The position numbers were made by a program, and so were the translations under genes. This document shows, piece after piece, positions 12,682-52,703 of a DNA stretch of 64,000 nt. The DNA comes from Rhodopseudomonas palustris (GTDB lineage: Bacteria; Pseudomonadota; Alphaproteobacteria; Rhizobiales; Xanthobacteraceae), in assembly GCF_003031265.1 (NCBI RefSeq), contig NZ_CP019966.1, positions 4,526,001 to 4,590,000 of the forward strand, given 5' to 3'. Within the stretch, counting starts at the first letter, position 1. Each line of letters opens with the position of its first letter. The notes under the pieces were generated by a model that made no database searches, was not told the DNA's origin, and saw nothing but the letters and a program-made list of their open reading frames with translations.

Positions 12682-13047
12682 GGTGCTTTCAGATCGCGTG
12701 CGATTTGCCTTGCGAAACGCTACTAGCTCCGTCACCGGCTTCGCAAGTCACAGTTTCCTTCAAGGGGAGCCGCCCTGCGACAAGGCAGCGCGGCTCGAAC
12801 AGCCCCTCGCCGCCTTGATCGAGCTTGGCGGCAGGATTACGACACCGCTGCAAAGCGTTCGTTCCCGAACAGTTCGGCTCTGACCGTGCGGCGATTGACC
12901 ATCGTGCGGTCTGGTGCTGGTATCGGCGCTGACGCAAGCGATCTGACGCAGCCTTTCGACTGCGCCGCATGCACCACGTCCTGGACCGGGCCCCTCTGGC
13001 AGTTCGTCTGAACTGTGATGTCGGACTGGACGCTCACGGAGCGCCCG
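12682..13047. other. Divergent intergenic region pepF / TerC-family gene
   Basis: About 365 bases with promoters for both neighbours expected but not identified with confidence. I looked for a yybP-ykoY-like manganese riboswitch because TerC-family genes sometimes carry one, and did not see its conserved core. No gene is supported. Confidence 0.4.
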
Positions 13048-48319: not shown

Positions 48320-48718
48320 TTACGCGACGCAACGTCCGGGCTGGAGCTGCTTGGCAACCTCGGTAAGTACACTGACCACCGGCTCGCAGGCCACGATCCG
48401 CTTCGGCGCCATCGCCGGCTTGGTGGTGGCCGCGGGCGCTCCGCTCGCCGCTCCGTCGGCCTGCTCCTTGGGGATTCGGACGAGAACCGATTGGCCGATC
48501 AGCGTCACGGCAAAGGTCTGGCCGGGCTGCACATCGCCGCTGATACCAGCACGATCGGCTTTGCCCGAACGGTTGACGTCTTGGGCTGCCGGTGCGGCAA
48601 CGGACGCCTGCTGCATCAGTCCGGCGTGACCGAGGTCTTCGCCGACAGCCAGTTGAGCCGCGCCAAGCGTTCCGGTGATAGCAATGGCGCCCAAAATTCC
48701 CCGCACGATCTGTGACAT
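48320..48718 (-). CDS. Small exported protein of unknown function
   Basis: 132 residues. The N-terminus MSQIVRGILGAIAITGTLGA is a signal peptide (a longer in-frame start at 48799 would destroy this). The rest contains SGDVQPGQTFAVTLIGQSVL VRIPKEQ, a possible small beta unit, and a Cys pair at the end (RIVACEPVVSVLTEV... RCV) that may form a disulfide. An AT/Ala-Pro linker separates them. I do not recognise the family. ATG at 48718 lies after a weak purine stretch (GGCAAGATACC). Confidence 0.6.
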   Translation of the reverse strand: MSQIVRGILGAIAITGTLGAAQLAVGEDLGHAGLMQQASVAAPAAQDVNRSGKADRAGISGDVQPGQTFAVTLIGQSVLVRIPKEQADGAASGAPAATTKPAMAPKRIVACEPVVSVLTEVAKQLQPGRCVA

Positions 48719-48881
48719 GGTATCTTGCCGCTTTGTTGTAGCTGGCGTTATGCCGCTTTTCCCTGTTGCGGCACCGCCAACTATGCGTTCGCGATGCACA
48801 CAATGATTAATCGCGGGAGCGGCAAAGCGGTTCGATAACCATCGATCAACAGAGCGTGTTAACGTTTTTAGCAGTTGACGC

Positions 48882-48906
48882 GGAACGGTTTTTACCTACC
48901 GGCGTT
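48882..48906 (+). promoter_or_regulatory. EcfG-type promoter of the GsrN-like RNA
   Basis: GGAAC (48882-48886), 16 bases, CGTT (48903-48906): a perfect general-stress promoter. No coding gene starts downstream before a strong terminator. Expected transcription start near 48912. Confidence 0.8.
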
Positions 48907-48911
48907 CATCC

Positions 48912-48990
48912 GGCGCCGGTTAAGTCCCCCTGCCCCGAAGCCGGCGATACAGGGCGCGGCTGTGTGATGCCAGCCGCGCCCTGTTTGATT
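48912..48990 (+). ncRNA. Candidate general-stress small RNA, GsrN-like architecture
   Basis: A transcript of about 78 nt is bounded by the perfect EcfG promoter and an intrinsic terminator. Hairpin 1 (48914-48946): CGCCGGTT pairs with AGCCGGCG through 8 pairs including one G-U, and presents a 17-base loop (48922-48938) containing CCCCC and CCCC. Hairpin 2 (48950-48984): 12 perfect pairs CAGGGCGCGGCT/AGCCGCGCCCTG plus one more, 8-base loop, then TTTGATT. The Caulobacter stress sRNA GsrN has an EcfG-type promoter, a 5' C-rich loop that pairs with target mRNAs, and homologues near core GSR genes; the same features are here, beside phyR. There is no plausible ORF inside. Confidence 0.72.
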
Positions 48991-49024: not shown

Positions 49025-49053
49025 AACGCCGCCCGGCAGAGCCGGACGGCGTT
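49025..49053 (-). terminator. Intrinsic terminator after phyR
   Basis: AACGCCGCCCGGC/GCCGGACGGCGTT (one mismatch) with a 3-base loop; on the minus strand TTTTGC follows. About 28 bases past the phyR stop, separating it from the convergent small RNA unit. Confidence 0.8.
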
Positions 49054-49080: not shown

Positions 49081-49887
49081 TCAGGAAGCAACCGCGTTGG
49101 GCTTACGGTTGCGCGAGTTGCGCTGAAAGAACAGCGCCTGGCTGGCAACCGCTGAGACCATCGCAGGCTGAAACGGCTTGGATATCAGGAAAGCCGGCTC
49201 CGGACGTTCGCCGGTCAGGAAGCGCTCGGGATAGGCGGTGATGAACACCACCGGCACTTCGAAGGTCCTTAGCAGTTCGTTAACCGCGTCGAGGCCGGAG
49301 CTGCCGTCGGCAAGCTGGATGTCAGCCAGGATCAGGCCCGGTTTCTTCGTCCGTGCCAGCGCGATCGCGTCGGCGTGGGTGCGGGCGACACCGATCACGT
49401 TATGGCCCAAGCCCTTGACCAGGCTCTCGAGATCCATCGCGATGAAGGTCTCGTCCTCGATGATGAGAACGTCGGTGGCGATCTCCTCGGCCATCTCCTT
49501 GCCGGCGGTTTCGACCAACTGACGGACTTCGGTGACCTCGGCCTGCAGTACGAAGGCGACCTCCTCTTCCGAAAAGCCTTCGAGGGACAACAGCAGAAAG
49601 GCTTGGCGGGGGAGCGGAGTGATCGCCGACAGGCGGCGTTCCGACGGCATCGGCAGCGTGCGAACGTCGGATTCGTCGTTCAGGGCGACCGAGTTCCAAA
49701 TTTGGGTAAACAAACGGAAAAGACCGGCCCGAGGACCGTGCCGCTCGTCGAGCAGGGCCGGATCCTGGAGCAGCGCCTCCAGCATGGCGCCTACGTAAGC
49801 GTCGCCGGAGGTCTGGCTACCGGTCAGCGCGCGCGCATAGCGGCGCAGCAAGGGCAAATGCTCTGCAACAACCTGTGATCTCGACAT
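49081..49887 (-). CDS. phyR: Anti-anti-sigma response regulator PhyR
   Basis: 268 residues. N-terminal sigma-like domain (about 1-130): MSRSQVVAEHLPLLRRYARA, SQTSGDAYVGAMLEALLQDP, and region-4-like TPLPRQAFLLLSLEGFSEEE VAFVLQ. C-terminal receiver (about 140-255): VLIIEDETFIAMDLESLVKG, phospho-Asp in LILADIQLADGSSGLDAV, VVFITAYPE and LISKPFQPAM. On phosphorylation the sigma-like part binds NepR, freeing EcfG. ATG at 49887 with GGAGTGGGG upstream. Divergent from nepR-ecfG, with a near-consensus EcfG promoter between, so the module probably feeds back on itself. Confidence 0.96.
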   Translation of the reverse strand: MSRSQVVAEHLPLLRRYARALTGSQTSGDAYVGAMLEALLQDPALLDERHGPRAGLFRLFTQIWNSVALNDESDVRTLPMPSERRLSAITPLPRQAFLLLSLEGFSEEEVAFVLQAEVTEVRQLVETAGKEMAEEIATDVLIIEDETFIAMDLESLVKGLGHNVIGVARTHADAIALARTKKPGLILADIQLADGSSGLDAVNELLRTFEVPVVFITAYPERFLTGERPEPAFLISKPFQPAMVSAVASQALFFQRNSRNRKPNAVAS

Positions 49888-49948
49888 CCCCACTCCATCA
49901 GTCATTCGGCCATCGCCAGCGGCGGGCCGGCACCTCTGCGAGGGCAAC

Positions 49949-49983: not shown

Positions 49984-50008
49984 GGAACTTTCATGCCGGG
50001 ATCGCATT
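49984..50008 (+). promoter_or_regulatory. Near-consensus EcfG promoter of nepR-ecfG
   Basis: GGAAC (49984-49988), 16 bases, CATT (50005-50008); one mismatch in the -10. It would start the nepR-ecfG mRNA near 50014. Confidence 0.6.
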
Positions 50009-50088
50009 AGGGTCCCGTGAACGGCGACAGATCAAGAAAACCCTCGAAGTTCAGGGGACTTGACCATGGGGAAAACATTGGATCAGTC

Positions 50089-50322
50089 ATGCAAGAATTC
50101 AAGGCTCAAACCATGAAGAAGTCGGCTCCAGGCACTAAGGGAGGTCTCAACGCCGAAATCCAGGCCCGGATCGGACATCAATTGCGCGCGATGTACGACG
50201 ACGTGGTCCGGCAAGGCGTTCCTGATCGGTTCGCGGAGCTGATCAAGAAGCTCGACGATCCGCAGCAGGCGGCCGAAGCGGCCAATGCCTCGGACTCGAC
50301 CGCGACCGAAGGGAGGGACTAA
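50089..50322 (+). CDS. nepR: Anti-sigma factor NepR
   Basis: 77 residues from ATG 50089, or 69 from ATG 50113. The NepR core is GLNAEIQARIGHQLRAMYDD then VVRQGVPDRFAELIKKLDD, two helices that clamp sigma regions 2 and 4 of EcfG. The C-terminal tail is acidic Ala/Ser/Thr. Without stress NepR holds EcfG; phosphorylated PhyR removes it. A 16-codon open frame starts upstream at ATG 50066 after AGGGGA and ends overlapping ATG 50113 (ATGA), which may affect translation. The stop overlaps the ecfG ATG by one base (TAATG). Confidence 0.93.
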   Translation: MQEFKAQTMKKSAPGTKGGLNAEIQARIGHQLRAMYDDVVRQGVPDRFAELIKKLDDPQQAAEAANASDSTATEGRD

Positions 50323-50867
50323 TGCCTCTCACCGATTCCCTTCGTGACGACATTCTCGCCGCCGTGCCGAGCCTGCGCGCGTTCGCTATCTCGCTGAGCG
50401 GCAACGCCGATCGTGCTGACGACTTGGTCCAGGAAACCCTGCTGCGAGCGCTCGCCAACATCGACTCGTTTCAGCCGGGCTCGAACCTGCCCGCGTGGTT
50501 GTTCACGATCCTTCGCAACCTGTTCCGCTCCGACTATCGCAAGCGGCGCCGGGAGGTCGAAGACGCCGATGGCAGCTATGCCAAGACCCTGAAGTCGCAA
50601 CCGGGACAGACCGCGCATCTCGAGTTCGAGGAATTCCGCGCCGCCCTCGACAAGCTGCCGCAGGACCAACGTGAAGCGCTCATCCTGGTTGGAGCCTCCG
50701 GGTTTTCCTACGAGGACGCCGCGGCGATCTGCGGTTGTGCGGTCGGCACCATCAAGAGCCGCGTCAACCGAGCCCGGTCGAAGCTTAGTGCGCTGCTCTA
50801 TGTCGACGGTGCTGAAGACTTCGGACCCGACGACACCGTCCGTGCCGTGATTGGCGGCAACGGCTGA
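50322..50867 (+). CDS. ecfG: General stress response sigma factor EcfG
   Basis: 181 residues, ECF sigma factor of the EcfG group (ECF15). Region 2 includes ISLSGNADRADDLVQETLLR, ALANIDSFQPGSNLPAWLFT and NLFRSDYRKRRRE; region 4 includes ALDKLPQDQREALILVGASG, FSYEDAAAICGCAVGTIKSR and VNRARSKLS. It directs RNA polymerase to GGAAC-N16/17-CGTT promoters, several of which occur in this window. Translationally coupled to nepR. AGGGAGGG lies upstream of the ATG. A perfect 11-base hairpin follows before the convergent kinase gene. Confidence 0.97.
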   Translation: MPLTDSLRDDILAAVPSLRAFAISLSGNADRADDLVQETLLRALANIDSFQPGSNLPAWLFTILRNLFRSDYRKRRREVEDADGSYAKTLKSQPGQTAHLEFEEFRAALDKLPQDQREALILVGASGFSYEDAAAICGCAVGTIKSRVNRARSKLSALLYVDGAEDFGPDDTVRAVIGGNG

Positions 50868-51029: not shown

Positions 51030-52703
51030 CTAGCGGGGCTGCTTCGGGGATTTTCGGATCGGGCGCACCGGCGCGGTGATCTGCCCGGTGCGATCACGCT
51101 CGTTGACGTCCACGACTGTATCGAGCGGCGCGGTCAGCTCATAGACGTAGCTGACGTCGGTGAAGTAGCGCTTCGATGTGCCGCCGAGCGCTTCGGGCGC
51201 CACGCGGTCAAGCAGGATAATGCCGAACTCGCTATCCGGACGCCGGGTCGACGCGCTGGTGTTGAACTCTTCCCAGCGGAAATGAAATGTTGCGTCCTTG
51301 GCTTCGCCTGTGACGGTCCAGCTCGCAACCACCCGCGGGTGCTTGCCGACCACGGCCAAGCCTTCATCGGAATGCGACGCCAGCTCGAAGAACAGCAGAG
51401 ACAGGCTCTGTGCCGCCCGCGCGCTGACCGCGATATCAGGACCGTCAACCTCGATGCGGTCGGCATGCGGGATTGCCCGTCCTTCGAACAGGCCCTTGAG
51501 CATCACGCCCTGCCACTGGCTGTCGCTGAGCAGCGACACGACGTTGGACATCGCATGAATCCGCCCGATCAGCAGCTCGCGCGCGACGTCGAGATCGGAG
51601 CCGTGGCGCAGCGTCCTGGTCACGATCGACTGGATCACCGCCAGAATATTCTTCACCCGGTGGTTGAGCTCGTCGATCACCGCAGTCAAGCGGCGCTCGA
51701 AACCAATCCGCATCTGGATTTCGCGTCGCAGCCGGATGTTGCTGTAGCTGACATAGCCGAACAGCCCACAGACGATCAGCGTCAGCGCCAGGCCGGCGAG
51801 CCCGATGATCAGCGCCATTTTCTGAGCGCGGTCATAGGGATCGATCTTCGGGTAATAGGCCAGCGACCAGTCCCGATTACCGAACGTCACGGTGCGAACG
51901 ATGATCGGATTAGCCCCTTCCGGGTGCGCCACCCGCGAGGTGATCTCGCCGCTTTCGTCGGCGAGCAGCTCATAACCCTCGCGGCTCGGATCCTTCAGCA
52001 CCACCGAGAACAACGACAGATCGTCGTTGGTGAGCATCAGCGTGGCGAGCTTATAGGAGAAGGTGACGAAGCCGACGATGTCCGAGCTGTCGGTGTTCAT
52101 CACCGGCGCCGCCAGAACGACACCGACCGGACCACTGCCCGTTAGCGGCACCGGATCGGAGACGTGCGGCTGGCCCTCGGCCAGGGCCTGCGCAAAGGTC
52201 CGGCCGAGCACCGGATCATGATCCAGCATCCGGCCGGTCAGCGCCATGGTCTCGGCGTTTCGCGGCTCGACATCCATCACGACGTCGAGCGGCACCGGGC
52301 TGCTCAGATCGAGCGGCTTGCCGTCATAGTCGCGCACGGTCGGATCGGGAAAACCCGCCTTGGTCAGCTCGGCCTCGGCGGCCGGCACTTCCTCGGGCTT
52401 CAGCCGTGCCACCCAGGTCGCCAGCACGAAATCGGTCTTGAAGGTGTAGATCGACGACCGCAGCGGCTGCAGCATGTCGGCCTTGATCACCGAGGGCTTG
52501 CGAAACAGGCCTGAAGCGACCCGGCCGAGCAGTTCGCGCTCGGTGAGGCGGTCCTGAACCTGGCTGGCATGAACGTCGATGGCCCGTCCGAGCGCGATGC
52601 GCTGGATCGCCGCTTCCTGCTCATAGACGCGGGATGCGGAAAAGCCTGACAGCACCACCCCTATGATAGCGATCAAGCCGATGATGAAGCCAAGCCGAAC
52701 CAC
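51030..52703 (-). CDS. HWE-family sensor histidine kinase, probable PhyR kinase
   Basis: 557 residues. A membrane helix at the start (LGFIIGLIAIIGVVLSGFSA), an extracellular sensor of about 240 residues with CHASE-domain features (TFKTDFVLATWVARLKPEEV, EPRNAETMALTGRMLDHDPV), a second helix (ALIIGLAGLALTLIVCGLF), then the dimerisation/phosphorylation region DELNHRVKNILAVIQSIVTR with phospho-His and an ATPase part with RWEEF (the WxE of HWE kinases) and SEFGIILLDRVAPEALGGTS. It faces ecfG, so it is the likely stress sensor that phosphorylates PhyR. The stimulus is unknown. GTG start at 52703. Confidence 0.9.
   Translation of the reverse strand: MVRLGFIIGLIAIIGVVLSGFSASRVYEQEAAIQRIALGRAIDVHASQVQDRLTERELLGRVASGLFRKPSVIKADMLQPLRSSIYTFKTDFVLATWVARLKPEEVPAAEAELTKAGFPDPTVRDYDGKPLDLSSPVPLDVVMDVEPRNAETMALTGRMLDHDPVLGRTFAQALAEGQPHVSDPVPLTGSGPVGVVLAAPVMNTDSSDIVGFVTFSYKLATLMLTNDDLSLFSVVLKDPSREGYELLADESGEITSRVAHPEGANPIIVRTVTFGNRDWSLAYYPKIDPYDRAQKMALIIGLAGLALTLIVCGLFGYVSYSNIRLRREIQMRIGFERRLTAVIDELNHRVKNILAVIQSIVTRTLRHGSDLDVARELLIGRIHAMSNVVSLLSDSQWQGVMLKGLFEGRAIPHADRIEVDGPDIAVSARAAQSLSLLFFELASHSDEGLAVVGKHPRVVASWTVTGEAKDATFHFRWEEFNTSASTRRPDSEFGIILLDRVAPEALGGTSKRYFTDVSYVYELTAPLDTVVDVNERDRTGQITAPVRPIRKSPKQPR

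Follow-up and report, generated by a model that had tools for sequence, protein, structure and literature searches.

We report a small RNA (sRNA) gene of Rhodopseudomonas palustris which is real and conserved, which judging from the sequence is very probably functional, and which lies tail to tail with phyR, with nepR-ecfG beside it (window sequence and Pfam), as an earlier note on this DNA had described. It is probably a stand-alone trans-acting sRNA of the general stress response (GSR), about 75-80 nt in length, that would be driven by EcfG and pair with mRNAs through its C-tract, a model that draws on the sequence and its predicted fold, on conservation and covariation, and on the geometry of the promoter and the gene neighbourhood. 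We class the RNA as GsrN-like, i.e. as a new sequence family of GsrN's kind, distinct from GsrN itself. The window, meaning the whole stretch of DNA analysed, comprises 64,000 nt of the forward strand of R. palustris GCF_003031265.1 (NZ_CP019966.1, 4,526,001-4,590,000), and all coordinates are window-based (Table 1).

Table 1 Features of the sRNA locus in the R. palustris window.
Feature	Position	Strand	Basis
EcfG-type promoter of the sRNA, GGAAC-N16-CGTT	48882..48906	+	sequence; GGAAC kept in relatives
sRNA gene	48911..48990	+	fold z -5.4; covariance model R1
5' hairpin, 8 pairs, 17-nt loop	48914..48946	+	predicted fold, covariation
Double C-tract CCCCCUGCCCC in 5' hairpin loop, proposed seed	48926..48936	+	unpaired probability; conservation
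Terminator hairpin, GC-rich; weak U tail to 48990	48949..48984	+	predicted fold, covariation
Terminator-loop motif GTGATGCC	48964..48971	+	19/19 relatives, 57/58 named loci
Terminator-like hairpin of phyR	49025..49053	-	terminator scan
phyR (anti-anti-sigma response regulator)	49081..49908	-	Pfam PF22029, PF22233, PF00072; start approximate
EcfG-type promoter of nepR-ecfG, GGAAC-N16-CATT	49984..50008	+	sequence
Candidate target site GGGGACUUGACC in the nepR leader (complement of sRNA GGUUAAGUCCCC)	50054..50065	+	complementarity
nepR (anti-sigma factor)	50089..50322	+	PF18557
ecfG (general stress sigma factor)	50322..50867	+	PF04542, PF08281
CHASE-HWE histidine kinase, beyond ecfG	51030..52703	-	PF03924, PF07536

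Genomic context and promoter

The PhyR protein encoded next to the sRNA gene has its best matches among the named genomes in R. pentothenatexigens (96%), Rhodopseudomonas sp. BR0M22 (95%) and R. palustris XCP (94%). Ahead of nepR, EcfG-type sites similar to that of the window were recognized by eye in many relatives, and the CHASE-HWE histidine kinase beyond ecfG is a possible GSR sensor. Elsewhere in the window, at 12978-13033 (+), an Rfam terC RNA (RF03067) was found with 55.5 bits, exceeding the gathering score.

The promoter of the sRNA, which the earlier note had called, is present in the window with GGAAC at 48882-48886, a 16-nt spacer and CGTT at 48903-48906; judging from the promoter spacing, transcription would start at 48911-48914. 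Taken by itself this match is at chance level, as the genome (5.27 Mb) holds 100 GGAAC-N15-17-CGTT sites compared to 114 for the reversed pattern, and the promoter count was consequently rejected as sole evidence. It is the conservation that shows the element to be real: GGAAC stands in register in all 19 relatives (own genome counted) and upstream of the sRNA in 58 out of 58 named loci carrying a full-length homologue, where it precedes stem 1 by 33-36 nt (34 nt in 46 loci). When the columns of these 58 loci are anchored on GGAAC, the flanking positions are mostly variable, an AT-rich block 11-19 nt upstream is also conserved and the -10 element is degenerate. Just 5' of the promoter, around 48829-48865, we additionally noticed a block resembling GGTTCGATAACCATCGATCAAC...GAGCGTGTTAAC which is kept in most loci of the same genus and may be part of a divergent ORF (48320-48721, -) or an upstream control site.

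Predicted structure of the RNA

For the RNA spanning 48912-48990, two hairpins are predicted with a folding energy of -44.2 kcal/mol, and none of 200 shuffled sequences was equally stable. The C-tracts CCCCC (48926-48930) and CCCC (48933-48936), separated by UG, show mean predicted unpaired probabilities of 0.95 and 0.87, in agreement with the C-rich hairpin loop described in the earlier note, and the predicted linker between the two hairpins has only two unpaired nucleotides. Caulobacter GsrN, for comparison, is cleaved to give a stable 5' isoform, and the level of its full-length form depends on Hfq. The terminator hairpin and its tail TTTGATT had likewise been recognized, there with 12 pairs; the predicted fold gives 14 contiguous pairs, the outermost of which, an A-U pair, uses the first tail U. 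The tail is a poor one, and only part of the hairpin was picked up by the consensus terminator scan; several relatives have better tails, e.g., TTCTTTTTT. No Rfam family scored above its gathering score for the sRNA, and the eight sub-threshold matches listed were taken as chance because all fall below their own gathering scores.

Conservation and covariation

By BLASTN, the sRNA element was detected in 19 out of 101 genomes (own genome counted). Over these 19 relatives compensatory changes occur in 11 out of 21 pairs, and 98.5% of pair cells are standard, compared to 27-53% paired after sliding the strands against each other, when one to three compensatory pairs are seen. Four of five covariation measures exceeded all 500 shuffles, whereas the fifth, further pair types, did not (64 out of 500 reach the same value). 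Within the terminator, nine of the 14 consensus pairs carry compensatory changes. The C-loop and both hairpins are thus kept in close relatives, as the earlier note had demanded of a genuine RNA.

Of the 80 named phyR loci, 58 furthermore hold a full-length homologue (E < 1e-11), including all ten named Rhodopseudomonas, in every case downstream of phyR on the opposite strand, about 60 to 3,800 nt past the phyR end. The other 22 loci gave no full-length match within up to 4 kb on either side, and 21 further matches in the named loci are weak (E 0.016-0.76), mostly the terminator hairpin read backwards. The 58 homologues comprise 36 distinct RNA cores, and this set overlaps with the 19-relative set, several genomes apparently belonging to both. 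CCCCC(C)TGCCCC is present in 53 of the 58 loci, with near variants in the remaining five. An exact 13-mer of the C-loop, found in 44 of 198 family genomes and at two to three sites in several of them, was dropped as an sRNA marker because it is too unspecific.

The covariance model R1 matched 94 of 244 family genomes; 150 had no match at E 0.001 in this search, which, like that at order level, used stricter filters that miss weak matches. With a single match in 93 of the 94 genomes, the sRNA is no repeat element. One family genome carries two copies about 1.6 kb apart (G188:C1:6468585-6468675 and 6470159-6470239; L063, L066), of which the second has diverged (50.8 compared to 85.3 bits). At order level R1 matched 11 of 249 genomes, ten from the same family, among them the own genome, and one outside it with a weak match (E 9.6e-4), i.e. 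under these stricter filters the sRNA was nearly unseen outside its family.

These data also bear on the notion that no regulatory RNA exists here and that the element is a palindrome or terminator of phyR, or a small coding gene. It lies 3' of phyR, and two mechanically called ORFs of 74 aa (+) and 80 aa (-) overlap it, neither of them with a Pfam match. However, phyR possesses its own terminator-like hairpin, so that the sRNA hairpins are not needed for ending phyR, and the C-tracts of the relatives differ by 1 nt in length in the 19-relative alignment, which should break the overlapping frames. Considering in addition the invariant GGAAC and the single copy per genome, we regard such an explanation as very improbable.

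The terminator loop is a further point of constraint, since its motif is kept almost without exception (Table 1) while the pairs of the terminator stem covary, which suggests GUGAUGCC as a putative second functional site. This degree of constraint would be more than a terminator needs and might indicate that the sRNA acts on a protein, a chaperone or another RNA-binding protein, via this loop, the C-tracts then serving as a protein site or an RNA sponge. We know of no protein motif for the loop GUGAUGCC, and the C-tracts resemble a pairing seed; action through a protein is accordingly a quite unlikely alternative to the trans-acting, mRNA-pairing sRNA favoured here.

Candidate targets

In Caulobacter crescentus, the C-rich loop of GsrN pairs with the katG leader (available text of PMC5869019), and the earlier note had proposed a search for G-rich sites near the start codons of catalase and RNA-binding genes. 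We examined katG leaders from 170 nt upstream to 30 nt inside the gene in 16 Rhodopseudomonas genomes, three of which were dropped as the start motif was not found. In contrast to the G-tract target of Caulobacter, 12 of the 13 leaders contain no G4+ run, and katG was rejected as a shared target. In most of these 13 leaders (L228 and 12 others), hairpins similar to one another, with a loop of the UCCCCC type, lie roughly 75-135 nt ahead of the start codon; by eye, their stem seems to contain compensatory changes. The perfect loop complement GGGGCAGGGGG occurs at 63 sites in the 16 genomes, and among the 30 sites fetched recurrence was limited to the sRNA gene itself (seven loci) and one pair of loci. 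A conserved GGGGCAGGGGG site as shared target was rejected, since only the sRNA gene recurs broadly.

Another candidate is the nepR-ecfG leader, where arm and loop of the sRNA could form 12 contiguous pairs just before nepR. This site was spotted by eye before testing and ranks as the second-best non-self site among approximately 128,000 positions (both strands of the 64-kb window). Among 22 named loci run, the pairing reaches 12 (L068), 14 (L069) and nine (L074) contiguous pairs, the nepR leader ranking first of about 17,400 positions in each, yet only five to seven pairs in the other 19. Taken across 58 loci (57 named ones and the window), the pairing shows no excess, with a mean z of +0.16 and no value below -1.5, which leaves the nepR leader unsupported as a family-wide target. 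Inspection of the leaders of L068-L147 revealed a block (GGGGACUURAC followed by GGGGAA, with variants; 50052-50074 in the window) that is kept in much of the family. As this block is conserved more widely than the complementarity to the sRNA, something other than sRNA pairing conserves it.

We therefore treat the nepR-leader complementarity as a clade-limited lead, which is of interest because in Caulobacter the mRNAs of nepR and sigT co-purify with GsrN (PMC5869019, Table 1, as far as that text was available). Going further, one could propose that the main action of the sRNA is feedback on the GSR through a shift in the NepR:EcfG ratio. The extended pairing in the window and in L068, L069 and L074, together with the co-purification, speaks for feedback; the missing excess over all loci, the short pairing elsewhere, the wider conservation of the leader element and the site having been noticed ahead of the test speak against it, and as the main role of the sRNA we consider feedback unlikely.

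Relation to GsrN and to C-loop RNAs at other phyR loci

According to the available text of PMC5869019, Caulobacter GsrN has a sigma-T promoter, a 5' hairpin with an exposed C-tract and an intrinsic terminator, and its predicted homologues in other Caulobacteraceae sit in the GSR neighbourhood, C. crescentus itself being an exception. The Rhodopseudomonas sRNA shares the promoter class (EcfG/sigma-T), the 5' hairpin with an exposed C-rich loop (here in the predicted fold), the 3' intrinsic terminator hairpin (with a weak U tail in the R. palustris window) and, with the homologues of other Caulobacteraceae, the closeness to phyR-nepR-ecfG. It differs from GsrN in length (about 79 nt compared to 106), in having two C-tracts split by UG instead of one six-C run, in the katG leader and in lying tail to tail with phyR. 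By analogy, a GsrN-like working of the sRNA appears well supported.

For the class-level survey, 41 phyR loci of other Alphaproteobacteria were chosen non-randomly, 34 from strong PhyR hits (125 of 289 genomes matched) and seven from NepR hits, leaving out L155 and L156 (no full PhyR) and L191 (filler), and were scanned with a loose -10. Of the 41 loci, 12 have a GGAAC site and behind it an RNA that combines a terminator with an unpaired C4+ run, compared to zero to three loci for each of 29 permuted pentamers in the same scan. Counted by site and considering only sites with a terminator behind them, an unpaired C4+ run was found in 12 of 42 for the EcfG type versus 20 of 540 for the permuted pentamers, and a G4+ run in none of the 42 versus eight of the 540. 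By eye, eight of the 12 loci sort into three groups of look-alikes (L152/L159/L171, L169/L174/L180 and L165/L168), so that the 12 are not independent, and the candidates at L173 and L157 may be chance matches. L148, a class-level relative, lies outside the 12 since the scan missed it; at L148:6016 (+) a C7-loop and then a C11-loop hairpin stand behind an EcfG-type promoter close to phyR, by eye a further GsrN-like candidate.

The PhyR of L168 has as its best PDB match by far 3n0r, which we take to be the C. crescentus PhyR protein. The loop GACGCCCCCCCGACTTGA at this locus fits the published GsrN target sites (PMC5869019) save one extra C, and based on both points the L168 RNA was taken as a putative Caulobacteraceae gsrN. 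L178, an order-level relative from another family, likewise has its C-loop RNA arranged tail to tail with phyR, whereas across lineages the orientation relative to phyR varies. Overall, these sequences indicate that C-loop RNAs recur at alphaproteobacterial phyR loci in differing orientation. A search for Caulobacter GsrN with a pattern derived from the published target table was discarded, giving one match in 289 genomes, in a genome of 1.8 Mb.

R1 found no significant match on 13 alphaproteobacterial loci, namely the Caulobacteraceae-like L165 and L168, which stood in for C. crescentus gsrN itself, and 11 others; the best match anywhere in them has 16.0 bits (E 0.17) and the best on a candidate RNA 11.3 bits (E 1.8). 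Descent from Caulobacter GsrN thus cannot be shown at the sequence level. The RNA could still be a true orthologue of GsrN, diverged beyond sequence recognition with the GSR neighbourhood kept, as the common promoter class, the two-hairpin layout with 5' C-rich loop, the neighbourhood and the C-loop RNAs at several other phyR loci, including L168 and the tail-to-tail L178, would suggest. Weighed against the R1 result, the varying orientation and the katG leaders, orthology by descent is a serious possibility towards which we do not quite lean. Because of the missing R1 match and the missing katG G-tract, the sRNA was filed as GsrN-like and not as GsrN; of the earlier designation as the local GsrN, the anatomy, the EcfG promoter and the conserved, covarying structure hold, and a sequence match to the Caulobacteraceae GsrN-type RNAs does not.

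Discussion

The release of EcfG from NepR by activated PhyR is established in other Alphaproteobacteria. Applied to R. palustris, activated PhyR would free EcfG, which we infer to transcribe the sRNA from 48911-48914; transcription would stop at the hairpin near 48985, and the exposed double C-tract may then pair with G-rich mRNA stretches, altering their translation or stability.

The kind of RNA and the predicted existence of the gene are already known. In 2018, a gsrN homologue was predicted in R. palustris and B. diazoefficiens, according to the available text of PMC5869019 solely from position and promoter, the Fig. 9A legend describing structures for Caulobacteraceae and Rhizobiaceae only. 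Considering the same organisms, the GSR proximity and the EcfG site, the predicted gene is very probably the one described here, so that 'unannotated', as the earlier note put it, is true of Rfam and not of the literature. Further sRNAs that come close to it, likened here by description only, share the EcfG site with the R. palustris sRNA, those of the Rhizobiaceae also the exposed C-rich loop, and GSR-dependent expression is cited for them. BjsR1-BjsR10 are likewise small RNAs from a close relative, Bradyrhizobium, but have RpoD, RpoN or no predicted promoters instead of an EcfG-type one (PMC5082802, available text), and in the main text of PMC5082802 'ecfG' is absent and 'phyr' occurs only as Phyre2. 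The main-text passages available from the Bradyrhizobium sRNA and TSS literature mention no EcfG-dependent sRNA at phyR, and besides PMC5869019 we noticed no other description of this sRNA in a partial literature search mostly outside subscription journals.

New in this study are the covariation, a detailed anatomy of the RNA, the motif GUGAUGCC that is nearly invariant in the terminator loop, the negative katG test, the C-loop RNAs found at phyR in other Alphaproteobacteria and, limited to a clade, a complementarity of 12-14 bp to the leader of nepR-ecfG. One may speculate, with a rather low chance of being right, that in the R. palustris clade this pairing closes a post-transcriptional loop on nepR-ecfG, that EcfG-controlled C-loop sRNAs with no discernible sequence kinship exist at phyR loci across Alphaproteobacteria, their layout having been kept or regained as the sequences changed, and that GUGAUGCC is a second, hitherto undescribed functional site.

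In the literature searched, GsrN was the only RNA of the alphaproteobacterial GSR with functional studies. The well-conserved counterpart in Rhodopseudomonas and Bradyrhizobium, for which a covariance model is now available along with predicted ends and a candidate target, allows one to test whether the alphaproteobacterial GSR generally includes post-transcriptional control. Its relevance extends to nitrogen-fixing symbionts and to the long-lived growth arrest of R. palustris, in which ecfG is up about sevenfold (PMC13343836, available text).
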